Positions 5,209 to 58,095 of a stretch of DNA of 64,000 bases are shown here, one piece after another. Numbering within the stretch: position 1 is the first letter of the stretch; each line of letters begins with the position of its first letter. Both the position numbers and the translations under genes were made by a program. The DNA is taken from contig NC_090784.1 of the NCBI RefSeq assembly GCF_040054535.1, positions 17,985,001 to 18,049,000 of the forward strand. The letters run 5' to 3'. Below the pieces are notes generated by a model. The model ran no database searches, was not told the origin of the DNA, and worked only from the letters and a program-made list of their open reading frames with translations. This stretch comes from Antennarius striatus (Eukaryota; Chordata; Actinopteri; Lophiiformes; Antennariidae).

Positions 5209-30139
<24,931 letters not shown>

Positions 30140-33100
30140 GTCCAGGAGCAGGTGAGAGGACGGCCAGAGTGGTGGTGGTGGTGGTTTTAGGGGTGGTGGT
30201 GGTGGTGGGGGCGTTCGTGGTGTCACTGACGAACTTTTGTGCTGCTGAGAGAGAGAACACTTCGTTTCCAAAGGTGAAATTTATCGACGTACAAATGAGG
30301 GGAGAGGAGGAGAAACAAAAAGTCCACACAGTCGGCTGATGGAGAACGAGACGACTTTTACAAGGTGAATAAACGGGGGAAAACGTTCCTCCAGTTGAGC
30401 GTGAGGCCTACAGATAAAGAACTGGCAACAAAGCAAACTGAGATGATTGGATAAACCTGAATTCCACATGACGTGATGATGTCCACTGGATGATTCTTCT
30501 GTCTTTACTTCCCATCTCGCCTCACCCATACATCCGTGTGCCGCTGGTTTTCTTCCACAGACACTTTCCTGGAAGCCCATCCATGTCCCACTCTAGTACA
30601 GTAACGCCTTGTTGGAGGACAAACTCTATCCGTATGTGATTTAAAACTAAAAGCGACTAAAAGACTTCAGCAAATGATTTCCTGTTGTTTTTAATTTTGT
30701 CTTGTTTTGTTACAATTGTTAAAAATGGGAATTAAACAGAAACTATATGTGACAGTATGGTGGATTGTAAAATTCAAAGAAAACTGATTAAAGCTAATCG
30801 TGTTTTGTGTCCCTCCCGGCACCCCCAGCAGCTGAAAGCATTTAATAACATGGATATTATTGGGAAGGAGGATGAAACAACTTCCAGACAATGTAAACAG
30901 TAGCATTTGGCCTGCCTTTCCTTACACTGCGTGCCTGTGTGTGTGTGTGTATCTGAAACAAATTGTACTTCCTGTAAGTGTGTGTCTTAACTACTCAAAA
31001 GCGAGGAGAAACACGTAACCAGCAACAGCAGCTTTCTCCGAATGTGTAATAATCAGACAGCCATGAAAGAAAGAGAGAGAGAAGAAAACTCTTTGAAATG
31101 TGAAATTGATGTCAGTCGTTATCCTGGATAAACGCTCTCCAAGCTTTACTTTTTTTTTTTTCTATTTCTTTTTTTTTTTTTAATCTCTTTTCACACGGCA
31201 TGAAATAGATAGAAAGACCAAGAGAGAGTCCAGATAGACGAGAACCAAAGCTGCTCTCATCTGTTAATTCTGGGCATCTTTTAATGGGTTTGTGAATGTG
31301 CCAACTTTAGCTGCAACTTCTTTTCCTTCTTTCTGTCTAACAGACAGACTTGGCCGTTAGCGACAGAGGCTCCTGCCAGAGTAAAAGCCTCAACACATCC
31401 CTGTCAATACCGTCTCGAGCTCTAATTACTCCCTTTGCAGTTGGGGACTCGATCACAGGGGAGGGGGTTGAAAACAGACAGACGTGCTAATAAATATATT
31501 TAGAAGAAACACACGCTTGTCACTCTGCTAGGAAAATAATCTGGTGTCTCTTAATTGTGATGTTAATGTGTGGAGCAACTATTGATACCACTGCAAGGTT
31601 TTTTTTAGTTTTTAAAAAAAAAAATCCACAGCCTTTAATCATAATTGTTTGTATTTGCAAACTTTTATCATATTAATACTAGTGGTTATTCAAAGCATGC
31701 CATAGAGATTTCCATCAACGTGGGATTAAAACTGAGATGCACAAACTGGTTTTATTGATCAGATCACAAGGCAGTGGCCATGGAAGTAGAGCGGACCGTC
31801 TGAGAAGGTCAATCTCTCGACCTTCCACTCTGGCTGCGTGTCTCGCCTGAAAGTAATCACTAATCGCTCCTGATCAATGGCTTCTTGTTTTGCCAGCATT
31901 TGTGATCGCCGAACCAATTAGTGAATGAAGGTGATGTAAATGAAATGTTTAAGCGGGTCACATTCTGTATCTTACCGTCAATAAATTCACTGAAACAACT
32001 AAAACTACAAGCAGGAGCCAAAGCGTAATGTAGATGTACCATAAATCTAATTCCCCCCCGCTACAAAACAACAGCAATTTGCTACAAAAAAGTTTCAAAA
32101 TAAAAGCATGAGCCCAATTAGCTACAGGCAGGAAAGGAAAGTAAGAAAATAACAACAGTAGCTTGGATCTGTTGACAAAGAAAAAAAAAAAAGGAAGCAA
32201 TATCACCGTCTTCGTTAAGTCTCCTTCATTTTATGCACCATTACCCCAATCATTGCTTGTTTGTGGGGAGATGAATCATCTTATCAGTCCAAACTGAATT
32301 AAGTGGTTGCTTCTAGTGATGTCCACACTCACAAGAGAGACAGATCAGATTTCTGTGCAGATTTCAGCTACAATCCACTTATTAATATGTGTGTGTAAGG
32401 TTACGTTACGTGATACCTTTATAGTTTAATCAAACCTACTCAGAATTCTGTGTTCTCTTCTTTATTAAATGGCCCCTTTCAGAAGTCAACACAACAATTT
32501 CATTATTTGGTCATTCTCAGTTTGTATGGTTTTTTTTTTTTTTTTTTGTTATATGACATTTTCACAAGATGAATTTGCATATTTTGCACTCCAGGTCATC
32601 AACTCATCAGTGCTCATTGAAGCGGTTGCTGTGGCTCCTCCAGAGTGACTCACTACTGACTGAACTGCGGGGCATTTTGACACAATCTTAGTTGTAGTTA
32701 GAATTCTTGTATGCAGAAGTCTTTTCAAAAATCTAGTCTGTGCATGGAAATCCCACCTTCTTGCTCAGTGTTTGCTTGTTTGTCTTTTTTAATATATTTA
32801 TTACATGAATGTAATGCTTTTCAGCAGCTGATTAATATTTCGTGATCGTGTTTCCTGCCTCTTCAACGCTTTAGTGTTATTTTTGCCTTTTTACTCTGGG
32901 TTTATTCTTTAATTCCCCAATTTGACCCACAGTTTTTGTCTCTTGACGACACCTTCTCCTCCAACACACAAAATCACCACATCCACATCCACAGTATAAA
33001 ATTCAAAATGTGCAATATGGAAAATCATCAGTTCAGGTCTTTATATTTCTGCTGGGGACAAAATACGACTATTGTTGTTGAGGTAAACACTGCAGTATTG

Positions 33101-37558: not shown

Positions 37559-37693
37559 TCATGTCTTTTGTGGCCTTAAAATTGCCACCGCGCTGTATGT
37601 GATGTCATCAGGGCGTGCAGTGTCTGTGTGTTTGCCTGTGGATGGTACAGCATCTCTGGATGGTTTGGGCTTGACGTCAGAGTAGACCACATC
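37559..37693 (-). CDS. TIGIT-like gene exon 6 (two ITIMs, stop)
   Basis: Acceptor cactaacacag; stop TGA at 37559-37561. Encodes 44 residues from DVVYSDVKPKP to the end LRPQKT. Y188 (codon 37684-37682) sits in V-V-Y-S-D-V and Y217 (codon 37597-37595) in I-T-Y-S-A-V, 29 residues apart. Confidence 0.82.
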   Translation of the reverse strand, partial: DVVYSDVKPKPSRDAVPSTGKHTDTARPDDITYSAVAILRPQKT

Positions 37694-39981
37694 CTGTGTT
37701 AGTGTCAGAATGTGTTAAAGCAGAGGCTAAGTTGCTTGATTGTACCATTGTGTTACGCTGATGATCTCTTATCAGATTAAAATCTTATATAATATGAGTG
37801 ACATTTCAGTTCAATTCAGTGACATGGTTTCAAACCAGCTCTGTGCTCACCTCTCTTGTATCAACAGGTGGCCTGTTCACATCCATATCTGGACTTCTTG
37901 TATCTAAAATACAGGTGTAAACTTAATCAAAGGAACTGAAAGAACCACAAGGTATAAATAAATCCTTTGCATTTCAAAAACAGAATGATAGGGGCACTTT
38001 GGTCTCATGCTTACCTATGCAGACATGGTGCCTGACCGAAAATCTAAATAAAGGAATGAAAAGTATGATGTTATTACTTGAGTGTCCTGAAGTCAGTTGT
38101 TTTTTTTTTTATTTTAAACCAAGGAAAGTGTGTAATGTCACAATACCGTTTAAGAGAAAGTACACATAATATTTAAGCACATATTGTGCTCTTCCTCTTA
38201 CCTGTCATCCTATTTATCAGTCTAGACAGCTTAGGGTTAGTTCATGAATTTTGGAGATAACAGCTGTAGAGCAGTTTATCTTCTCTGAGGATAATCTGCA
38301 GACCTTGTTTCATATAGGAATGTATTTTCTTTCTACTGAACAATGGTGTATAGCAGCAGAGAAGGAAATTAGTATCTAGTCACAGACAAAAGACTGGAGC
38401 ATTTGTGACAGAGCAGAATGTGAATATTAATGGCTCCTTGGCTGAGCTTTAACATTATCTAGTTAGCTTACCTCTTGGCTTCCTAATGCACAGTAACACA
38501 GAACCAAAAAAGTTCTCATATAAAACTGCTCAAAACGGGAACAGATTATCATGAGTCACTGGGTCATGATTTCTGTAAAGAGACGTTGCACCTGAACTTT
38601 TCAAATCCAGTTGTTAATGTTTTTATCTTTTGCCATCTGGTTCCATTTTGTTCAAAAGGAGGCAAATATCTCTCTAGTGAATCGCTCAAATAAAAGTCAC
38701 ACCAACACAATCTAAATGGAAGGATGGTACTAAAAAGCAAATATATATATATACAGTATATGTATACTCTATATATTTTAGTGTTAACAGTGACTTTAAC
38801 TGAATTTATTACTAATAAATGTATTTAGAAAACTGTACAGCACAGATGCTATGTTAAAGATTTGTTTCAATATCAAAATTTGGGACAAAAAAAATCTTTA
38901 AAGTGACAAAAACAACAACAAAAACAAATCTTGTGTAGACTGATGTCAATTTTTGAGAATTTTAGCCCCCAAAAAAGCTTCCTTTATCATCAGTCTGGTT
39001 GTGTTAGAGTGTTGGCCATGGAAGCAGCGTCTGTACACACATAAACATCAGAGACACACTCACCTTCTGATAAAGATGAGGTAATAAGTAATGGCCGCCA
39101 TCACTAACAGCAATAAGACAGAAATCACTACAGCAGAAACAATTCCTGGTGACAAAGGCTTCTCTTCTGGGAGAAGAAACAGAACTGTGATGACTGGGTG
39201 TCTAAGATGAAGTTATGTAAACTTGAGATATGTGGAAGGATGCATTTACTTACCATAAACAACGAGGTTGGTGGTTCCTACAAGTGAACCACTAGGAAAG
39301 GCCGCAATGTTGCAGGTGTACAACCCTGCATCTTTCTTTTCAACTTCTGTAATTGTCAAAGATTGGTTGTCTAACTTCAATCTCTGTTTCAGATATGTTT
39401 CCAGAATATTTACTCCATTTTCAGAGCTGAAAACAATAATTCGTATTTCTTCTCCCTTTAGTGACTTGAACATCCACTGAAGCTGAACAATCTTGTCTCC
39501 TAGTGGTCCTGGGATGAACTGGCATGGCAGGGTAACATCATGCCTGAGGTATCCATCCACTTCAGGCAACATTCGGATTTCTTGAGGCTCGAGAACTGCC
39601 CAAAAATTTCAGTGATGATGTCAAAGTAAGGAATGACATATTACCGAGAAGTTGCGCTACAGGTTGCAAATGTTGAAGTGCTAAAGGGGATGTTTCACAC
39701 CTGAGTCATAAATTGTTACTGCCTATAATGCCTATATTTTGAGGTGCAAATAGGTACATGTGAATCTGGATTACTTTGCTACATTTTTCAAATGTGAGAT
39801 TCAAATATTGTTGTTGTTTTAAAAAAAATACAAAAAAACGTTGTAAATATCAGTATTACTGATATGGTGAACTACATCTGGATAAGGGAAATTAAGATTA
39901 TATATATATATTTTAAGACAGGCAATAAAATCATTTATTCTTACCTGGGAGTAATGCCATGAATATCACCTGCAGCAGCAT
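37559..39981 (-). CDS. TIGIT/PVR-like inhibitory receptor: one IgV domain, membrane span, two ITIMs (6 exons)
   Basis: Probable type I immune receptor binding nectin-family ligands. Exons in transcript order: 39981-39945, 39595-39254, 39166-39064, 38031-38015, 37903-37851, 37693-37559; 687 bases, 228 residues, all GT-AG and in phase. Signal peptide MLLQVIFMALLPG. IgV domain about 13-126 with C37 and C107; it holds GYLRHDVTLPC, W53 and LYTCNIAAFPSGSLVG. The AAFPSG-type motif after the second Cys is the nectin/PVR/TIGIT family mark. Membrane span about 135-158. Tail motifs VVYSDV (Y188) and ITYSAV (Y217) both fit the ITIM consensus [IVLS]-x-Y-x-x-[ILV]. Human TIGIT has the same order and similar size (244 residues). 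Alternatives are a CD96/CD226-like or single-domain nectin-like receptor. Exon structure is well supported; orthology is inference. Confidence 0.82.
37851..37903 (-). CDS. TIGIT-like gene exon 5 (juxtamembrane tail)
   Basis: Acceptor ctgtattttag; donor GAGAG|GTGAGC, phase 1 in and phase 0 out. Encodes DTRSPDMDVNRPPVDTRE. Confidence 0.72.
38015..38031 (-). CDS. TIGIT-like gene exon 4 (17-base microexon)
   Basis: Lies between acceptor ttttcggtcag and donor CATAG|GTAAGC. It takes phase 2 in and gives phase 1 out, encoding only HHVCI. It is the sole exon I found that keeps the frame open between the span and the next exon. Confidence 0.6.
39064..39166 (-). CDS. TIGIT-like gene exon 3 (transmembrane)
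   Basis: Acceptor cttctcccag (minus strand); donor AGAAG|GTGAGT, phase 2. Encodes EEKPLSPG, then a 24-residue hydrophobic span starting IVSAVVISVLLLLVMAAI, then RR as stop-transfer. Confidence 0.88.
39254..39595 (-). CDS. TIGIT-like gene exon 2 (IgV domain)
   Basis: Acceptor tttttgggcag; donor TATG|GTAAGT. Encodes one complete V-set domain with canonical Cys37 and Cys107 (LPC and YTC) and Trp53. The D-A-G-L-Y-T-C motif precedes the nectin-type AAFPSGSLVGTTNLVV strand. Confidence 0.92.
39945..39981 (-). CDS. TIGIT-like gene exon 1 (signal peptide)
   Basis: ATG at 39981; donor CCCAG|GTAAGA at 39945, phase 1. Encodes MLLQVIFMALLP, a short hydrophobic leader. Confidence 0.8.
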
Positions 39982-41853: not shown

Positions 41854-42010
41854 TGTCTTCATCACTTGTATTCTAATCATAGCAATTCATTTATACATGT
41901 CTGCAAAGTCAAAAACAGATTTATAATTGAGTAAAAAATAAAAATTCAGTCCGTTTCAGCCAAAAGTGCTTTTAATTTGTCACATATTATTGTTGAATCA
42001 AGGTCCTCAG

Positions 42011-42036
42011 TCAGAAGCAAAACCCATCTGGGGAGT
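42011..42036 (-). CDS. CEACAM-like A exon 5 (short C-terminus, stop)
   Basis: Acceptor tttattctcag; encodes DSPDGFCF then TGA. Its start (phase 1, D-S) parallels the GPI-tail exon of gene C, but the hydrophobic run is absent. Weakest exon of the model. Confidence 0.5.
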
Positions 42037-43762
42037 CTGAGAATAAATCATAAAACATATTAGTGTGATTAGTATGATGATAAACAATAGAGATAGTTAA
42101 AGTTAGGTTAATTAATCACAACAATGAAGATAAAAAATATTTTCACTTTCTCACCTGTCAATACTTTTTACACGAATCCACTCCGCGTCAGTTCACTTAT
42201 CAGCAATACTAAAAGTGACCAGCAGGGGGCAGTGCAGGACGCTTCACGTAATTACAAAGAAGTTTATCACTCTTCAAACCTTACATTAAATTACCACAAA
42301 TACATAAAGGAATCAAGTGAAGTAAATCTTACCTCTTAGATTCAGAAATGTAGAGTTTTCCATCCTGGTCACCATATTTCTGGCTGTGCATGTGTAATTC
42401 CCAATGTTTACTTCCTCTAATCTCTCAATGACATACATGGAGTTATTAACATGTGTTTCATTTCCGTTGAATGTCCAGCTGAAGTTTGCTGGTGGGACAG
42501 AGTCTGCTATGCATTCCAGTGTCACTCTTTTGCCTGGAGTTGCTGCTGATGGTCCTCTAATCGATATGTTATGTGGTCCAACTGCATATAGAAAATACCC
42601 AATATTAAGGATGTAGAGTTTAAAATGAATGTAATCTAAAGATTTCAACAAATACTTTTATTTTGAAATGATAGTCCACAGTCTTGAGGCCGGAAGTGAA
42701 GATACTCACAGTTCACAGTGAGACTGTAGTCCACTGTCATGGTGCTGACTGGATTGCTGACCCTACACTGATAGGTGCCATGGTCTGAGTTGTGAACGGG
42801 TTGTATGGACACCGTCCTGTTGTCGATAGAGAGACTGACTCTGTCGCTCGGACGGAGAAGCCGGCCATCCTTGATCCACAGCCTGTTGCTGACGGTGCCA
42901 GAGGCCTCACAGCTCAGGCTGGTGGAGCTCTCGTCCTCTATCAGGGTGGCTTCTGGGCTGCGGATGGTGGCTCCAGTTACCTGCTCTGTTAGAATGATAA
43001 GATAATTAATTTAATCAAATGAGTGACAAAAGAAATTGTTATATTGATATAATAAAAAAATTATGTAAATGTAATTTTTGTGCAAATCAGAGTTGACTTT
43101 GGGTAAAATAATACAAAGTCATCTCAGGCATTTATTTGACAGGTTTTATTTTTTCATTTACTTTATCTTATTCTTGTTTTTATTCACAGTCTTGTTCTCG
43201 TTATTCTTATTCTTGTTCTTGTTCTTATCCTTATTCTTACAACCTACCATAGACATTTACTGAAATCTTCCCCTGTTTCAGCACTTCCTCACTGGTTATA
43301 ATAGCGATGGTGTACTCTCCGGTGTCCTCCACCACCAGGCTGCTGAGCTCCAGGGAGCCAGTGGCTCGATGTAAGAAGATCCTGTTTTCATATCCGAGCT
43401 CAGTGACGTTGACGTTGATGGAGGTTAAGATGTTCACCCCCTTGAAGCTCCATATAACTGACAGGAATGGCTTTTCTGGAGGTCTCAGGGTGGTGGTGAA
43501 ATTCACTGCACCTCCCACAGCTCCACTCAGGGGCCCCAAGGGTAAGATGCCCTCACCGACGCACATACCTGGTTAAACAAACAAAAAAAAAACCTTCATA
43601 ACTCTAGGAACTAATTCAGTTTGGCTTTAATCTTGTCAATCGATAGAACAAAACACATTGATGTTAAGTATTTCTGTGATTTACTGTACCTGATAAAACA
43701 AGAACTAAACAAGCAGCAGTCCTCAGCATGTTGTCCACGGGCTCAAATGACGTCTGTGACAT
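42011..43762 (-). CDS. CEACAM-like gene A: signal, IgV-like N domain, two Ig domains, short tail (5 exons)
   Basis: Adhesion or immune-recognition glycoprotein of the CEACAM type. Exons: 43762-43690, 43568-43248, 42985-42710, 42581-42333, 42036-42011; 314 residues from the first ATG (303 from the in-frame ATG at 43729, which gives a cleaner leader [14 protein letters not shown]). All introns are phase 1. The N domain lacks both canonical Ig cysteines (GAVNFTTTL and GEYTIAII), the hallmark of CEACAM N domains, but keeps W in SVIWSF. Domain 2 holds LSCEASG and YQCRVSN; domain 3 holds LECIADS and YTCTARN. The last exon adds only DSPDGFCF before TGA, with no membrane span or GPI signal, so the product is probably secreted. 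A missed alternative last exon would change this. Lies 2 kb from the TIGIT-like gene on the same strand. Confidence 0.85.
42219..42233 (+). promoter_or_regulatory. CTCF-like motif
   Basis: CCAGCAGGGGGCAGT matches the core consensus CCASYAGRKGGCRS throughout. It lies in the last intron of CEACAM-like gene A, near the 3' edge of the cluster. Confidence 0.45.
42333..42581 (-). CDS. CEACAM-like A exon 4 (Ig domain, B-type)
   Basis: Acceptor tatatgcag; donor AGAG|GTAAGA. Starts [18 protein letters not shown], the x-G-P opening shared by all B-type domains here and by CEACAM A/B domains in mammals. Confidence 0.9.
42710..42985 (-). CDS. CEACAM-like A exon 3 (Ig domain, A-type)
   Basis: Acceptor attctaacag; donor AACT|GTGAGT. 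Encodes [18 protein letters not shown] through TVDYSLTVN with Cys in LSCEAS and YQCRVS and Trp in RLWIKDG. Confidence 0.9.
43248..43568 (-). CDS. CEACAM-like A exon 2 (cysteine-less IgV N domain)
   Basis: Acceptor gtttaaccag; donor TATG|GTAGGT. Starts [19 protein letters not shown] and carries [11 protein letters not shown] and [13 protein letters not shown]. No Cys at the two Ig-fold positions. Confidence 0.9.
43690..43762 (-). CDS. CEACAM-like A exon 1 (signal peptide)
   Basis: ATG at 43762 (A at -3) or 43729; donor TCAG|GTACAG, phase 1. Mammalian CEACAM leaders also have long polar n-regions, so the first ATG is kept. Confidence 0.78.
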
Positions 43763-48739: not shown

Positions 48740-51700
48740 CTGCAGGAGGAAAAAATGACAAGTGATTAAGGGAGGATTTGGTGTTTTGATCAACACCATT
48801 CCTGCAAAATGAAAGAAACTTCTCACCTGTAAACTAATCTAAATATAAAAGAGAAGTAAAAAATGCTAATAAAAATACAGTATGGTGAAAAGTGTAGTTT
48901 TCTTTCTTACAGATGAATTATTGTGTTTTGATCAATACAATTACTGTAGAGAATTTGATCCTACAAAACACTCAAAAAAAGTTTATATTCTGAGTTTAAC
49001 TTTTTCTAGGTGGAGCTGTGAGCTAGATTTGTGACATCACATTGTCAAATGGTGTAATGCTATATCTGCTTGATGTCCAGCACAGACAGGCCAAAATGTA
49101 GGAGACTTCTTCTTTTCAGCAGGTTAACTTGTGAATTAAAAAAAAAATCTTTTTGCCTGTTTATGAATTCTGGAATTTTTACAGGACATGAATGAACAGG
49201 AACAATTGAAGATATTTTAATCTTTAAGTTAGCCATGTACTGTACATTTTACAATATACAGTACATGGCTAATTTGATTAACGTGTCAGACACGTTAATC
49301 ACATGAATGTAATTGTACTGCATATAATCCATAATTAAAACTCACCATCAAAGGAAGACGAGTCGCTGTGTGCTGTTTGTGACATCTTATAAGTATCTGA
49401 GCGTCTCTCCTTTACACTTAGTTTTTCTAAGGTATTAACAGAGCGTTTGTTAATTTATATGATCCAAAACGTTACTGCTATGTTCAGGAAAAATGTGAAC
49501 ATATATTGATTATAAGAGCTGGGATCAGAGTCATACTGACCTTTTTGATGTGCTGGATAAATGCTGTTTAACCTGAAAAATAAAAACAAGGCATTGATAA
49601 TATTATATGAGCTTTCTAAAAAATGTCCACCGTTTAAATTTAAAAAAAGGAAGAAAAAAATGAATCTTTTGTGTAAGTGGGCATGCAGCTCACAGTACAT
49701 ACACAAAAAAGAAAAATTAAAAAAAAATTCATTGCATTTATGTGGGTTTTGCATTTGTGCAAACAGATAAACAGATTTTGCAGTCAGATTTTGTAAGTGA
49801 GTCATTATGGAAATTTGCAGACAAACCATCAAACTTTTATTTACTAATGTCAGTTAATATAATTTGGACTCTCATGCATGTGCTGACTTGTCAGTAAAGT
49901 ATACACCCTTGTGCGATGTGTAGTCTAATCTAAAAAGTGATAATGTGATGTTTCAATGTGTCCATCACGGTGTCAAAATGCTCAATTTGAATTTGTCACA
50001 TCTTTCCGAGGCTGTATTTATTGGCGTTGTTAGATTAGATTGTGTTGTGCTGAGAGATGCTGCAGAAAATTCTGCTGTATTTGTACATTTTTCAAAAAAA
50101 ATATTCTTTCTCTAAAATAGAACAGCAAGACCATCAGATAATACAGCCAAATCTTCTAGTTTGCACACAACTTCCTAAGGTTTTAATAAAAGAGAGTCAT
50201 GTTTCATTTTTAATCTAATATATTGACTGATGTGATATTGGGGTAAATCATTGATATCACCACTTAAAAATAGAAGTAAAATACTGTATTTCCATTATTC
50301 TACAGCCATTTAGATAGATAGATACTTTATTAATCCCGGAGGAAATTGCATATATGCAATTTATGTCATTTTTGCACACCTACAATATATGCACAAGACA
50401 ACACGATTACTGCAGCTTGAACAGAAGTCACACATTTCATTCTCACCTTTTCCTCCGTATCACACCATAAACAAGCATTGCACAGACCACTGCAATAATC
50501 AGGCAACATCCAGCTGTTAAAATTGTAGCTCTTGCAGCAGCCCTTGAACAGTCTGAGAATTCTGAAAAGACACCCGAATGCAGTTTGTCTTTGAAATCAA
50601 ATGTGTCACCAACATTTATACTTCTGTGTTGGTTTTTCTTTTGTTGTCACATACCTGTAATGGTAAAATCGTGACTCGCTGTTTGATTCCGGCCTGTTAC
50701 AGCATTCACAGCTGTGCAACTGTACGTTCCACCGTGAGAGAGTTCGATGGATGGTATGATGTATGCAGCATCATAACAACTTCTTTGGATGCCATTAAAA
50801 AACCATGTGAGTGTTGCCGGTGGCACAGAGGGAGCGGAGCAGTAAAGCATAGTGAACTCTCCGACGTGTAGGAGTGTAGGTCCTGAGATGGTGACGGTGT
50901 CTGGTCCATCTGCAACACAACAAAGGTATTATTTATATTATTAATAGAAAGTTCCTGTGTTTCCCTTTTGTATTCATGGTGACTGGATTTATTCTTATCT
51001 TCACAAATGGAACTAGAAGGATGAGAAAATAGAGTCCATAACAGAGTCCCGTTTTAAAAAAAAAAAATTACAATCATTACTTGAGTTAATTTTATTTAGA
51101 TTGCAAGAACAATTGTACGTGCTTTTCATATGGGATGAACGTTTCATTTTGCCTATAAAATATGAGCCTCACTCTCTGATAGTGTGACATGCTGTTCCTC
51201 ATAAAACGTTTGAGCTCTTGTGTTATTCTGATTAAAGGCTGTCTAGAGTCTGTGAGCAGGATTTGAGACTGAGCATGAGCTCTGCATGCAGAGCTGTAGC
51301 CTGGATGTGCCAATCCTGTGAGTAATTGCCTTTTCAAATTTCGTAACATCCATAAACTCACATTGGATGAAGAGATTCACAGGTTGGCTGATTACACTGC
51401 TGACACCATTTGACACGTTGCACCTGAACGGTCCCTGGTCATAGCGGGTCACATTAGTGATGATGACCTTGGAGCCTCCATCAGTGAGGTGAACTCTATC
51501 ACCTGGCGTAACCTCGGAGCTGCCATTCAGCCAGAGGAAAGAGAGGGAAGGTCCTGAAGAGGAGCAGGACAGACTGACGGAGCTGAACTCAAACATCTGT
51601 GTGTTGTTAATCGTCACATCCGCAGTGGAAACTTGTGCTGTGGGCGAGCAAGCAAAAGGCGATTAGCACCAAGTATTCATGTTGATCTTTCAGCCATTTA

Positions 51701-54700
51701 TCTAAAAAATACTCAACCGTGCCTCGTATGGAGATTGCGACAGGTGGAAATGTTGCATTCCTGCCAGTTTTGTTGTTGTAGGCCTGACAGCTGTAGTTTC
51801 CACTATGACTGATCTGAACGTTCATCAGCCTGAGCTCTGGTCCAGTGTGAGCCAGCTCATCTCCATTCAGGAACCAGTAATACTGGGCAGAAGGTCTAGA
51901 GTCAGCTGAGCAGACCAGTCTGATGTTTGATCCTTCTTCATAATGTTCTTGTGATGGAAACAGCTTCAAATGAATATTTTCTGGCCCAACTGGGTGAGAC
52001 AACATAAAACAGTAAGGTCACTAATTAATAAATTGTGTTAGCTCGAGACGCAGCATGTAGCATTCAGCTCGGCTTGGAGTGCAATGGGCCATTAATGTTT
52101 ACTATGTTAGTCTCATAATGAATAGCGTCGTTAAATGTAACTATGACTCACTAAATACCGGCTGAACACAATAAAACAGGAAGGAACTCAACACAAATCA
52201 AATGAAATACAACCATTCCTGACATGACAGCAGTAATAATCATTATATCAAGCTGTGAATTCATGGGTCTATCCAGTATTTAGTTCATTTATATGGCGCC
52301 TCATGTAGCATTTGCATGCAGAGCATGTAAGCACAATAACTCACAGCTTATGTGGAGTTTCACCGGATCGCTGGTGTCATTACTGAAATTATTGAACACG
52401 TGACACCTGAATGGTCCCTGATCGTAGCGTGTCACATTAATGACTGAAAGGATGGAGCCTCCGTTAGTGATGTGGACCCTTTCACTTGCTGTAACATTGG
52501 AGCTGCCGTTCAGCCAGAGGAAAGAAGGGAAGGACCCAGAAGCAGAGCACAACAGCTTGACGGAGCTTTTGAGCTCTGACAGATCGGTGGTATTGGTGGT
52601 TATTACAACATTGGAGATTTGAGCTGTGGGTGGATTAGAAATAAAAGAAAATGTTAGGCGTCATGCAAAAATTAAAACATCAAAAGTGATATAGAGCTTG
52701 AATCAACAAAACGCTCATCTCTAGCCAATAATATATATATAGTTACTGTACAGGGGATTGAAACAGATTGAAAGACAACTACAGTATTCAGATCATTTAT
52801 CCATGTAAAGAAATTAATAAGTGAATTTGTGTCTAACTTTACCTTTGACTCCATGTACGCCTAATGTTGTTTATGCGCCAGTGAGCAACCTATATTTATC
52901 AAAACACTACCTCAAAGTGGTCCAAATGTCACTCCTTTAAGTATTGTTAACTCTGCTGAGATGTTAACATGACCTATTTGGGGTTTTCCCCCCTATTTAT
53001 TAGCAAGATAATGCAAATGCACAGATTTGCAGGAATGTTTCACCAAAGTAGAACCCAAGCACATCCTGAAATTTTTAATGATCAGAATCAGGATCTACTT
53101 CTGAGTATTTTTTTTTTTAGAATGCCTTGTTGAGGTTTTGTTTTTCCTAAACAACTTACATTTTTGAACAGAGACAGCCACAGAATGAGATGTTTGATTT
53201 CTTAAAGTTCTGTTGTTAAAGGCCTGACAGCTGTAGTTTCCACTTTGACTCATCTGAATGTTTATCAGTCTGAGTTCTGAACCAGAATCAAGCAGCTTGT
53301 CTCCGTTCAGAAACCACTTTGTTAAAGCAGGAGGTCTGGAGTCAGCTGAGCAGATCAGGCTGATGTCTGCACCTTCATCATAGTATTCTTGTAATGGAGA
53401 TAGAATCACATGAATATTTTCTGGACCATCTATGATTAAAAAAAACCCAAAAAAAATATAGTCACTAATAAAACATTGATAGGAGAGGACAAGAACATCA
53501 CAGATTATGTTATTAACCTTGGGTGAAAGCTTAACTCTGTCTATCACAAACTGTAGTTTTACATTCAGCATTCGCTTTTGTAATTTTTAAATGACCATAA
53601 TGGATGAAGACAACAGTCACTCACAGCTGATGTTGAGTTCTACTGGACCACTGGAGCCATTACTGACAGGATTGAACACCCAACACCAGAATGGTCCCTG
53701 GTCGTAGCGGCTCACATTGACTATAGTGAGAGTAGAGCCTCCATCAGTGAGCTGAACTCTGTCACTGGCTGTGACCTCAGAGCTGCTGTTCATCCAGAAG
53801 AAGGATAGGAAGGATCCAGAGCAGGAGCAGGACAGACGGACGGACCCACTGGACTCCAACATGTCCGTGGAGTTTGCATTCACCGTCACATTTGATACTT
53901 TCTCTGTGGGATGAACAGATATCGATTATGACAATGCACATTTAAGTAATGACACTTCTGTGAAAGTAGGTGGTACAATATCTCAAGTTTCTCAATGGAG
54001 TCCTGGAGTCACCGAAATATTTGGTTTGGATTTTTGTTCCTAAAACAAAAAGTGCCTGTAATTGTTTGGTGTAAAATACAAATACATTGACATTAGCCAC
54101 ACCCCTTCCTGGAAGTGGGTGTGGCTTAGGCTTGCTGATACTTTGCTCCAGTGTGAATGAAGGACGGGCAAACTATGAGCACCTGTTTTCACCCGGGAGG
54201 AGGTGCAAAACCTGCTATGACATCATAGTAGACCTCAAATCTGAACGGTCCTTCACAGGACATATTTCCTGATAAGTGGAGCAAGCAAAAAAAGAGTTGT
54301 TGTTTTTTATGTGCATCTCTAGAGGACACAAAAGGGTATTTTTGTAGGAAAATCCTGAAAAATTGCACTTTGCACAATATAAGACCTTGAATTTTCAAAT
54401 TAGGTTATCAATGTTCATTGAAAGAAAAATGTAATTTATGACACTGAATTCAAATTCTTTTGAACACACACAAAATCCAATGCTACAAATGAATAATCAA
54501 ATATAATCTTATTTAAAATGTCACTACTTTGAAATTATATTCTTTCGACTTACCCAGTACATTTATAACCAAAGGCTTCGAAGATTCATGTCTCATAGTT
54601 TTGTTGTTAAACGCCCGACAGCTGTAGTTTCCACTTTGACTCATCTGAATGTTTATCAGTCTGAGTTCTGAACCAGAATCAAGCAGCTTGTCTCCATTCA

Positions 54701-57700
54701 GAAACCAGTTTATTAAAGCAGGAGGTCTGGAGTCAGCTGAGCAGATCAGGCTGACGTCTGTACCTTCACCATAGTATTCTTGTGATGGAGATAGAATCAA
54801 ATGAATATTTTCTGGGCCATCTGTGGCAAGAAACATAAAAATATGCAGTCACTAATAAAATATTGATAGGAGAGGACAACTTATAGAACATCACAAATTA
54901 CTTTATTAACCTGAAGTGAAAACCTAACTGTTTGTGTCACATACTCTGTAGTTTTACATTAATCTTTAGTTTTTCTAATTTTGTAAATGAACATAATGGA
55001 TGAAGACAACAGTCACTCACAGCTGATGTTGAGTTCTACTGGACCACTGGAGCCATTACTGACAGGATTGAACACCCAACACCAGAATGGTCCCTGGTCG
55101 TAGCGGCTCACATTGACTATAGTGAGAGTAGAGCCTCCATCAGTGAGCTGAACTCTGTCACTGGCTGTGACCTCAGAGCTGCTGTTCATCCAGAAGAAGG
55201 AGAGGAAGGATCCAGAGCAGGAGCAGGACAGACGGACGGACCCGCTGGACTCCAACATGTCGGTGGAGTTTGCATTCACCGTCACATTCGATACTTTCTC
55301 TGTGGGATGAAAAGATATTGATTATGGTAAGGCACATTTAAGTAATGAAAGTAGGTGAGTGAAACTTCCAAGTATAATTAATTATACCATCATTACAACA
55401 AATATCTACAGCCTGTACAAAAAACAATTATAGCACTGGGTTTTCTGCAACTGCCAATATTATTTTTATTACATGAATGTCAGCTTAGAAACTTCTTAAT
55501 TATAATATCCCTCATGGGATCTAATTTAACAAAACAAATTTAAATTTAAAGAAATATCTACAGAAAGAGTACAAATTTTATTTTAATGTAATTTCATCTA
55601 TAACAATTTACGTTATAGACTGAAAAAAGACAAAACAGGTCTGAAACCTATAAAACAATAGGACTGGTGGTACAAACTTTCTATAATTAGCTTTTACAAA
55701 GTTGAATTAAAAAAACAACACCTGTTGTCACAGTCTGACGCGTCAACAGTTTAATGAAAACCCGTAACTTTTTTAATGGTCCAAATAATTTTGGACTTGC
55801 TCCCATGAACAATTTTAGATAAAGTTCTGATTTGGTTTACAGTTCCGTGTCTAAAATGCCCGCTCAGTGTCTACGTATGTTTTGCATAAAATATAAAAGA
55901 GTTGACACTAGCCACACCCCTTTCTGGAAGTGGGTGTGGCTTAGACTATGTAATTCACAGCACTGAATTCAGACTCTTTTGAACACATACCAAACCCAAC
56001 AAAACAAATGGATTAATATAAATATGATAAATAATATGATAAATAATATATTTAAAATGTCGCTACCTCAAAAGCATATTTTTTTACTTACCCAATACAT
56101 TCATAACCAAAGGCTGTGATGATACGTATCTCATAGTTTTGTTGTTAAAGGCCTGACAGCTGTAGTTTCCACTTTGACTCATCTGAATGTTTATCAGTTT
56201 GAGTTCTGGTCCAGTATCAGGAAGCTTGTCTCTATTCAGGAACCAATTATACTGGGCAGAAGGTCTGGAGTCCGCCGAACAGGACAAGGTAACATTTGAG
56301 CCTTTCATATTGTATTCTTGTGATGAAGATGTCAGATTTACGATTTCTGGGCCAACTGAAGAGAAAATTTCACTAAAATATTAGAAGTTTGACAGTTTTT
56401 AGGACAGATTTTTTCTAAAATATTTATTTCTGGTATGTGGAGGAACTTGCAATAAGTAAATATATAAAGTGGTAACTCACAGCTGATGTTGAGTTCTGTT
56501 GGATCACTGGTGCCATTACTGACAGGATTGGACACCTGACACCTGAATGGTCCCTGGTCGTAGCGGCTCACATTGACTATAGTGAGAGTAGAGCCTCCAT
56601 CAGTGAGCTGAACTCTGTCACTGGCTGTGACCTCAGAACTGCTGTTCATCCAGAGGAAAGAAGGGGAGGATCCAGAACAGGAGCAGGACAGACGGACAGT
56701 ACTATTGAACTCCACCAAGTCTGTATTGCTGGCTCTAACCACCACATTAGAGACCGGTTCTGAAAGTTGAAATAAGCAGCAGAATGGTCAGACTCAAACA
56801 CGGACAAATCAATTTCTATTTGATTGTCTTCTACCTTTCTGTAGCAGAACATCATTCAAAACTGCTTTCATGCACAATCCAACACCTTTATGCACTAATT
56901 CTCTCCTAAAATGCGATTAGTCTTCTGTGTTAACAAACCACATATGAATAACTGTGACTCAACAGTGAAAAGCGTTTAATGTAATTATTAGAAATGTATT
57001 AATTCCATTTTTCTTTTACTTTATTGGAGATCGTTAGATAATAATTGTATTAATTTTATCTCTACATGAGGGATGAAAAACAATTTGATTGGCTAGAGGT
57101 TGTACCACTGATTGTTTTGGTCTCTCTTGATACACGAGTCTTTGCATCATGTGGTGTTTAATTTACCTGAACGTAGAATTGAATTTCACCTGAATAGGAG
57201 ATGTGACCATGTGACCAACTGTGACCACGCCCTTTAGGTGGAAGGTGATGACAGTGTAGTGTAGTCATATATACCAAGGACATTTTTCTACTATAATAGT
57301 CTATAATAATAGTGAATATGCAATGATTTCCACTGTGAGTTTTCATCTATTTCACGTTGGCATTATATTTAATTCAGTGATTTTAGTTTGGTTAAAAGGA
57401 AAAACATCTTGAACAGCTTTTCTGTCAAAAATCATCATGGATCATCTTACCATTTATGAGCAGGTAGCATACTCCTCTTTCTATTCCCACAGGTGGTTTT
57501 ATAATAGTGACTGAGTATTCTCCAATATCTTTAAGAGTCAGATTCCTGAGCTCCAGAGAGCCAGTTGAACTGAAAAGGGTGATCCTGTCGCTGTATGCTG
57601 GGTCTGTTATGTTTACACCAGTTGAGGTTATTATATTTAAATCAAAAAAATTCCAAGTTATTGCCACAAATGGGTTTTCTGTTGGAAGCAGCGTCGTCTT

Positions 57701-58095
57701 GAACACCACTGTGTCTCCAACCATTCCAGTAAGAGTGCCTGGTAGCACACTGTTCCCATGGCCCAAACCTTGAAAAGAACATTTAATTTATTGGTTGGAT
57801 ATGACAGCAACTGAGAAACAGAATTGGTTGTCATGATGATTTAAGGTTACGTGTTATCTAAAGTAACTCAAACTATTAGATTAACATGAAAATATTATAT
57901 AATGGTACTACCTAATTAGCACAATCAAGAGCCATTTAAAAAACAGATTATATATGCCATTGTCATCATTATCATGAAAAAAACTATGGTAGCTATGACA
58001 AACCATTTCTGTTTATTCCAGTAATGTTCCGTTTAAAGACTTTGCTCACCTGAGATGGCTCCTAGGACGATCAGAAGCATCACCGACGTTTCCAT
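48735..58095 (-). CDS. CEACAM-like gene B: eleven Ig domains, membrane span, short tail (16 exons)
   Basis: Large CEACAM-type membrane glycoprotein. Exons: 58095-58050, 57768-57451, 56759-56481, 56355-56092, 55299-55021, 54820-54554, 53903-53625, 53429-53160, 52623-52345, 51989-51723, 51637-51362, 50909-50655, 50561-50447, 49572-49541, 49426-49346, 48739-48735; 1103 residues in one frame. Signal [16 protein letters not shown]; cysteine-less IgV N domain (16-121); then five alternating pairs of A-type (xPVSNV... RYDQGPFxC) and B-type (xGPExI... SGNYSCxAxNN) domains to about 1026; membrane span about 1039-1061; tail about 1062-1103 with two tyrosines (SIYPAH, DTYKMS), neither an ITIM. Many N-glycosylation sequons. 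The ectodomain outranks human CEACAM5 (seven Ig domains). Exons 5 and 7 are nearly identical. Exon 10 needs a GC donor. The last intron has two candidate acceptors; both give an immediate stop. Confidence 0.87.
49229..49300. repeat. two adjacent perfect hairpins
   Basis: First: TTAGCCATGTACTGTA (49229-49244) with 49257-49272. Second, three bases later: GATTAACGTGTC (49276-49287) with 49289-49300 around a single A. Within the last-but-one intron of CEACAM-like gene B. Confidence 0.92.
49346..49426 (-). CDS. CEACAM-like B exon 15 (tail)
   Basis: Acceptor aataccttag; donor GATG|GTGAGT. Encodes [17 protein letters not shown] and AHSDSSSFD. Confidence 0.72.
49541..49572 (-). CDS. CEACAM-like B exon 14 (tail, 32 bases)
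   Basis: Acceptor tttttcag; donor AAAG|GTCAGT. Encodes [10 protein letters not shown]. Phase 2 in, phase 1 out. Confidence 0.7.
50311..50352 (+). mobile_element. 3' end of a teleost LINE/SINE-type element
   Basis: GATAGATAGATACTTTATTA followed by ATCCCGGAGGAAATT, a common 3'-terminal signature of fish retroposons with a GATA microsatellite tail. Only the extreme end is visible. Confidence 0.45.
50447..50561 (-). CDS. CEACAM-like B exon 13 (transmembrane)
   Basis: Acceptor gtcttttcag; donor AAAAG|GTGAGA, phase 2. [12 protein letters not shown] leads into a 23-residue span ([18 protein letters not shown]...) and RRKR stop-transfer. Confidence 0.88.
50655..50909 (-). CDS. CEACAM-like B exon 12 (Ig B5, membrane-proximal)
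   Basis: Acceptor tgtgttgcag; donor ACAG|GTATGT. Opens [18 protein letters not shown]; Cys in LYCSAPS and YSCTAVN. The YGPDT start closely resembles mammalian CEACAM B domains. Confidence 0.9.
51362..51637 (-). CDS. CEACAM-like B exon 11 (Ig A5)
   Basis: Acceptor cgcccacag; donor CAAT|GTGAGT. Opens [18 protein letters not shown]; Cys in LSCSSSG and FRCNVSN. Confidence 0.88.
51723..51989 (-). CDS. CEACAM-like B exon 10 (Ig B4, GC donor)
   Basis: Acceptor tctcacccag. Opens [20 protein letters not shown]. At the position where every sister exon has G|GT, the donor reads CGAG|GCACGG. A GC-AG intron keeps phase 1 and the domain length (267 bases). Confidence 0.75.
52345..52623 (-). CDS. CEACAM-like B exon 9 (Ig A4)
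   Basis: Acceptor cacccacag; donor AGCT|GTGAGT. Opens [18 protein letters not shown]; Cys in LLCSASG and FRCHVFN. Confidence 0.88.
53160..53429 (-). CDS. CEACAM-like B exon 8 (Ig B3)
   Basis: Acceptor ttaatcatag; donor AAAT|GTAAGT. Opens [20 protein letters not shown]; closely related to exon 6. Confidence 0.88.
53625..53903 (-). CDS. CEACAM-like B exon 7 (Ig A3)
   Basis: Acceptor tcccacag; donor AGCT|GTGAGT. Differs from exon 5 at about four bases in 279, all silent. Confidence 0.9.
54090..54127. repeat. GC-rich near-perfect hairpin, copy 1
   Basis: AGCCACACCCCTTCC pairs with the following GGAAGTGGGTGTGGCT. The same hairpin recurs near 55908 in the paralogous intron. Confidence 0.8.
54115..54440. 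mobile_element. probable repeat insertion within the gene B intron between exons 6 and 7
   Basis: The paralogous intron (55300-56091) runs straight from the GTGTGGCTTAG hairpin to CACTGAATTCAGACTCTTT. Here about 300 extra bases lie between the same landmarks. No coding content seen. Confidence 0.4.
54554..54820 (-). CDS. CEACAM-like B exon 6 (Ig B2)
   Basis: Acceptor cttgccacag; donor CTGG|GTAAGT. Opens [20 protein letters not shown]; Cys in LICSADS and YSCRAFNN. Confidence 0.9.
55021..55299 (-). CDS. CEACAM-like B exon 5 (Ig A2)
   Basis: Acceptor tcccacag; donor AGCT|GTGAGT. Opens [18 protein letters not shown]; second Cys in the unusual FWCWVFN context. Protein identical to exon 7. Confidence 0.9.
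55908..55942. repeat. GC-rich near-perfect hairpin, copy 2
   Basis: AGCCACACCCCTTTC with GGAAGTGGGTGTGGCT; one base differs from copy 1 in the stem. Confidence 0.8.
56092..56355 (-). CDS. CEACAM-like B exon 4 (Ig B1)
   Basis: Acceptor ttctcttcag; donor TTGG|GTAAGT. Opens [19 protein letters not shown]; Cys in LSCSADS and YSCQAFNN. Confidence 0.9.
56481..56759 (-). CDS. CEACAM-like B exon 3 (Ig A1)
   Basis: Acceptor caactttcag; donor AGCT|GTGAGT. Opens [14 protein letters not shown]; Cys in RLSCSCSG and FRCQVSN; Trp in FLWMN. Confidence 0.9.
57451..57768 (-). CDS. CEACAM-like B exon 2 (cysteine-less IgV N domain)
   Basis: Acceptor tcttttcaag; donor AATG|GTAAGA. Encodes [18 protein letters not shown] onward, with VAITWNF and [12 protein letters not shown]. 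No canonical Cys pair. Confidence 0.9.
58050..58095 (-). CDS. CEACAM-like B exon 1 (signal peptide)
   Basis: ATG at 58095; donor TCAG|GTGAGC, phase 1. Encodes [15 protein letters not shown]. Confidence 0.85.

Follow-up and report, generated by a model that had tools for sequence, protein, structure and literature searches.

Human TIGIT is encoded at 3q13 with its tail in a single exon, and both TIGIT and PVRIG (CD112R) have one V domain. The tail tyrosines of TIGIT are given as Y225 and Y231 (PMC10439114), and PVRIG is described as having a tail like an immunoreceptor tyrosine-based inhibitory motif (ITIM) and as sequestering CD112 (PMC9263721). In CEACAM1, a 53-bp exon is described as cytoplasmic exon 1 (PMC2110893) and the motifs have been located in cytoplasmic exon 3 (PMC13278318), while CEACAM genes are reported to swap their membrane and cytoplasmic exons together (PMC2110893). 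Here we describe a gene found in a 64,000-nt stretch of the Antennarius striatus genome (NC_090784.1, positions 17,985,001–18,049,000; hereafter the window, to which all coordinates refer unless a chromosome is named) that combines a short leader, a single V domain, a membrane span and a tail with two ITIMs. It is, on balance, probably a single-copy fish type I membrane protein in which a V domain of the nectin-2/PVR lineage is joined to a two-ITIM tail of CEACAM1 type, acting as a leukocyte inhibitory receptor that opposes CD226. In the open-licence PMC literature we found no account of a fish receptor of nectin type that is inhibitory, a search that did not extend to subscription papers or genome annotation.

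Gene model and tail

The candidate gene runs on the minus strand from 39981 to 37559 in six exons, with AG/GT at every intron boundary and junction phases of 1, 1, 2, 1 and 0. The joined exons make 699 nt, or 232 amino acids and a stop, rather than the 228 residues of the first-pass annotation, whose coordinates and in-phase joining of six exons were correct and whose leader, single V domain with the AAFPSG motif and membrane span are all present. All six exons are intact and the frame is free of stops across the 232 codons. Exon 1 (39945–39981) contains the start codon and a short hydrophobic leader, MLLQVIFMALLP, and ends in a phase-1 donor (CCAG/gtaaga). The complete V domain, nectin-2/PVR-like in sequence, is held in exon 2 (39254–39595, phases 1 to 1), and the stalk and membrane span, with a mean hydropathy of 2.89 over 19 residues, in exon 3 (39064–39166, phases 1 to 2). 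Three tail exons follow, namely the membrane-proximal exon 4 (38015–38043, 29 nt, phases 2 to 1), exon 5 (37851–37903, 53 nt, phases 1 to 0) and the final exon 6 (37559–37693), which carries VVYSDV and ITYSAV and ends in a TGA stop with an AATAAA 7 nt downstream. A scan of both strands of the window for leaders (an ATG, a hydrophobic stretch and a phase-1 donor) returned 8 rows at 6 distinct places, including 39981 and 58095, the second of which lies a little way 5′ of a neighbouring V exon; the scan's thresholds were chosen after the candidate had been seen, and it missed a likely neighbour-gene leader at about 43.73 kb.

As first proposed, both tail motifs match the ITIM consensus, [ILVS]xYxx[ILV], with their tyrosines 29 residues apart. 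Lone strings of this kind are frequent in the open frames of the 64-kb window (149 on the plus strand and 131 on the minus strand), and pairs 20–40 residues apart occur at 6 distinct places (4 rows on the plus strand and 3 on the minus), so the pair alone means little. Its weight comes from its location in the final exon of an in-phase gene with a V domain and a membrane span, and none of the other five could be placed in an exon of this kind.

The tail agrees with that of CEACAM1 in exon number (three tail exons) and in the position of both ITIMs in the last exon and, presumably, in its exon phases, which for CEACAM1 we take from the short and long forms. The two genes also share a locus family and differ in the N domain of CEACAM1 and in the lengths of the tail exons. 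When the last exon was used to search the host genome, the sole match was itself, and we therefore infer descent from the tail of a CEACAM-type neighbour from the layout. Pattern scans for relatives returned 5 matches in viral contigs and 99 in genome contigs, none of which was confirmed as a relative. Within the CEA family, CEACAM19 is described as having the same order of V domain, membrane span and tail, with a presumed immunoreceptor tyrosine-based activation motif in the tail (PMC2110893) in place of the candidate's ITIMs.

Relationships of the V domain

Exon 2 matched the Pfam V-set profile at 3.5e-12 (46.9 bits against a cut-off of 26). Both canonical Ig cysteines are present in the candidate and missing from the three CEACAM-like V domains of the window. 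Against solved structures in the PDB, the domain matched nectin-1 (4.6e-10), nectin-2 (4.9e-7), PVR (4.3e-5) and CD226 (1.7e-4), and TIGIT was absent from the best 60 of the 237 matches. In a local phmmer run against 17 V domains, of which 14 were human and three came from the window (A, B and C; 16 are listed, CADM4 being the other), nectin-1 was first at 41.7 bits, followed by nectin-2 (33.4), PVR (27.0), nectin-4 (22.7), PD-L1 (19.8), CXADR (18.3), CD226 (17.9) and nectin-3 (17.1). The best family score thus lies above those of the generic V domains of PD-L1 and CXADR, although both of these exceed CD226 and nectin-3. The remaining scores were 9.3 for the V domain of B, 8.8 for TIGIT, 8.3 for that of C, 6.3 for CD96, 5.6 for the CEACAM1 N domain, 5.0 for CADM1, 4.3 for the V domain of A and 3.7 for PVRIG, the last obtained with a provisional human sequence. 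PVRIG resembles the candidate in its ITIM-like tail and, on this provisional score, differs from it in the V domain. An N domain of CEACAM type was considered for the candidate and rejected on the scores to CEACAM1 and to the three window domains (4.3–9.3 bits).

Three ligand-binding motifs, (V/I)(S/T)Q, AX6G and T(F/Y)P, were compared in columns set by TIGIT; the CEACAM1 N domain and the three window V domains were left out. The candidate's equivalents are IVQ, IVFSSENG and AFPSG, which match at five of the eight positions (nine family members match at 4–8 and four controls at 0–2). The I, Q, G, aromatic and P positions are kept, while S/T is replaced by V, A by I and T by A. Single mutations at the positions of these three motifs are reported to reduce or abolish the gathering of TIGIT at the synapse (PMC10439114). 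Nectin-2 (CD112) and PVR (CD155) have three Ig domains, and the V-C2-C2 ectodomain of PVR type was not found in the candidate, whose leader and membrane span are separated by a single Ig exon and whose tail has two ITIMs 29 residues apart.

Trees were built from 15 V domains and then from 18, with one starred branch in each; the second left out the CEACAM1 N domain, CADM1, CADM4, PVRIG and a half-length nectin-2 from C14. The first tree put the candidate on the margin of the nectins; in the second it paired with fish nectin-2 inside NECTIN2/PVR (support 52/61). The second tree also put PD-L1 next to fish CD226. The phylogeny that the first-pass annotation had proposed as a check thus gave a best tree with nectin-2 and PVR, but rejected no placement, that with TIGIT included. 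AlphaFold2 models of the V domain had a predicted local distance difference test score (pLDDT) of 46 alone and 61 when the CEACAM-like V domains of A, B and C were added. A Foldseek search of the PDB with the latter gave 760 matches at E ≤ 10 and none at E ≤ 0.001; the best 50 had template modelling (TM) scores of 0.20–0.41 by query length, with CXADR first. This structure-based search, also proposed at the outset, was uninformative and is used for or against no reading.

In the host genome, the closest relative of the candidate shares its contig, being a nectin-2-like gene at a distance of about 404 kb. An intron interrupts the nectin-2-like V domain at C9:17.62 Mb (L021 4103–5541) near the (S/T)Q motif, whereas the candidate V domain lies in a single exon, as do those of the three other host nectins. 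Only the second half of the V domain is visible in the frame of the C14 nectin-2 copy (L002). CD226 is clearly present, as a gene with two V domains on the minus strand at C20:8.33 Mb (L015 1486–1806 and 904–1338), its first domain matching human CD226 at 6.7e-22. When the human TIGIT V domain was used as query, the candidate was not among the 23 host matches at E ≤ 10. The top match was at C24:8.188 Mb (1.4e-6; L009 1008–1842, minus strand), a gene with two tandem V exons, one with a TIGIT-like HTYPDGT stretch, that appears CD200-like by eye from its V-V-C2 layout. The matches on C18 appear, from the one locus viewed by eye, to be T-cell receptor V genes.

Proposed function and competing explanations

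By analogy with the families to which its parts belong, the V domain would bind in trans to a member of the nectin family on an adjacent cell, and Src-family kinases would phosphorylate both tail tyrosines. The tandem SH2 domains of SHP-1 or SHP-2 could then dock on the phosphorylated tail and damp activation, and signalling of this kind would oppose CD226, which the host genome also encodes. It is plausible that the candidate works like TIGIT. More tentatively, teleosts may have made an inhibitory arm of their own for the CD226-nectin axis by fusing, within the CEACAM locus, a V domain of nectin-2 type with an ITIM tail of CEACAM1 type, exon exchange thereby giving rise to a second TIGIT-like checkpoint; we regard this as possible but doubtful. 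If the candidate does do the job of TIGIT with a separately made tail, the balance of CD226 against an inhibitory nectin receptor would be either old or rebuilt, and fish would offer a system for testing it.

Several results weigh against this account. PD-L1 and CXADR outscored the family members CD226 and nectin-3 in the phmmer comparison, a warning that nothing should be read into the ranking beyond nectin-1, nectin-2 and PVR standing first. In the first tree, pairings of the candidate with TIGIT (p-AU, the approximately unbiased test, 0.257), CXADR (0.339) and PD-L1 (0.112) were not rejected, and in the second the pairing with TIGIT cost 8.6 log units and was likewise not rejected (p-AU 0.228). 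The tail exons differ in length from those of CEACAM1, with 29 and 53 nt in the candidate against a first exon of 53 nt.

The first-pass annotation had called the candidate TIGIT-like, with the same plan and size as human TIGIT. The V domain, membrane span and inhibitory tail are indeed shared, and the length is presumably similar. The gene model has held up, and the interpretation in part; the identification with TIGIT has not. That the candidate is the fish orthologue of TIGIT, altered in sequence and relocated in the genome, is quite unlikely, even though the trees leave that pairing open and TIGIT is named in a figure legend of one salmon paper (PMC8202022). Among solved structures, nectin-4 (36.3 bits) was a better match to human TIGIT itself than CD226 (31.7 bits) was, and fast evolution could therefore hide orthology. 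However, the candidate's similarity to TIGIT is near noise, below PD-L1, CXADR and one CEACAM-like V domain of the window, and two of those window domains are among the host matches of human TIGIT from which the candidate is missing. The TIGIT tail has an ITT-like (immunoreceptor tail tyrosine) motif and an ITIM 6 residues apart, a pair that the candidate lacks. Its membrane exon and three tail exons, and its position between grik5 and the CEACAM-like array, also differ from the single tail exon and the 3q13 locus of human TIGIT. With V similarity, tail motifs and neighbours all different, and the trees open, the candidate is better filed among nectin-2/PVR-type receptors, with a single V domain and an ITIM tail in the style of CEACAM1.

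Alternatively, the exons for the membrane span and tail, and perhaps that for the V domain too, might form the 3′ end of neighbour A, a CEACAM-like V-C2-C2 gene. The product would then be a CEACAM1-like receptor that has gained a V domain next to the membrane, or else two promoters would share one tail. Neighbour A ends in phase 1, a phase that either exon 2 or exon 3 of the candidate could take up; between the two genes there is no more than a weak hydrophobic stretch near 41.60 kb (1.61); and CEACAM16 is reported to carry V domains at both ends (PMC8274849). Yet the candidate has its own upstream ATG, hydrophobic leader and strong phase-1 donor, separated from the V exon by a single intron of 349 nt, and A could end near 42.01 kb in a short open exon followed by polyadenylation-like signals (both read by eye), which makes this arrangement improbable. 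The CEACAM locus has been reported with PVR and IGSF23 as flanks (PMC4079198), so a gene of nectin/PVR type is in character here, and the candidate could be a diverged counterpart of one of these, a PVR-side flanking gene of the CEA locus from a common ancestor. This we consider unlikely, as the ectodomain of PVR consists of three Ig domains and the gene is reported only from placental mammals (PMC7286890). A pseudogene or unexpressed set of exons, to which the short leader might point, is highly improbable given six intact exons, canonical splice sites throughout and 232 codons without a stop. We accordingly retain the two-ITIM receptor with a nectin-2/PVR-type V domain.

Neighbouring genes

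The first-pass annotation had placed the candidate beside a CEACAM-like cluster, which is borne out by a CEACAM-like array on the candidate's strand; grik5 (kainate receptor 5) lies on the other side. The grik5 exons extend over about 13500–30140 on the plus strand (bounds by eye), and one of them matched GluK5 best among solved structures (2.6e-45, with GluK4 at 3.9e-43). Neighbour A is CEACAM-like, with a leader (read by eye), a V exon and two C2 exons at 42330–43735 on the minus strand. As only the weak hydrophobic stretch precedes the candidate, neighbour A (42010–43735 with the possible last exon), in which no membrane exon is convincing, may be secreted or may share the tail of another gene.

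Gene B, also CEACAM-like and on the minus strand (50447–57787), has one V and ten C2-type exons in frames that we read ourselves. Its tail was sought by scanning for exons under a filter and with a permissive tyrosine motif, which gave 12 rows, none of them in a recognisable exon. On this reading of the frames the gene has 11 Ig domains and ends in a membrane-like exon with no evident glycosylphosphatidylinositol (GPI) signal; zebrafish CEACAMz1 is also reported to have 11 Ig domains (PMC8274849). Two of the C2 exons of gene B, at 53620–53925 and 55016–55321 on the minus strand, are near-identical, and this pair is a recent tandem duplication inside the gene.
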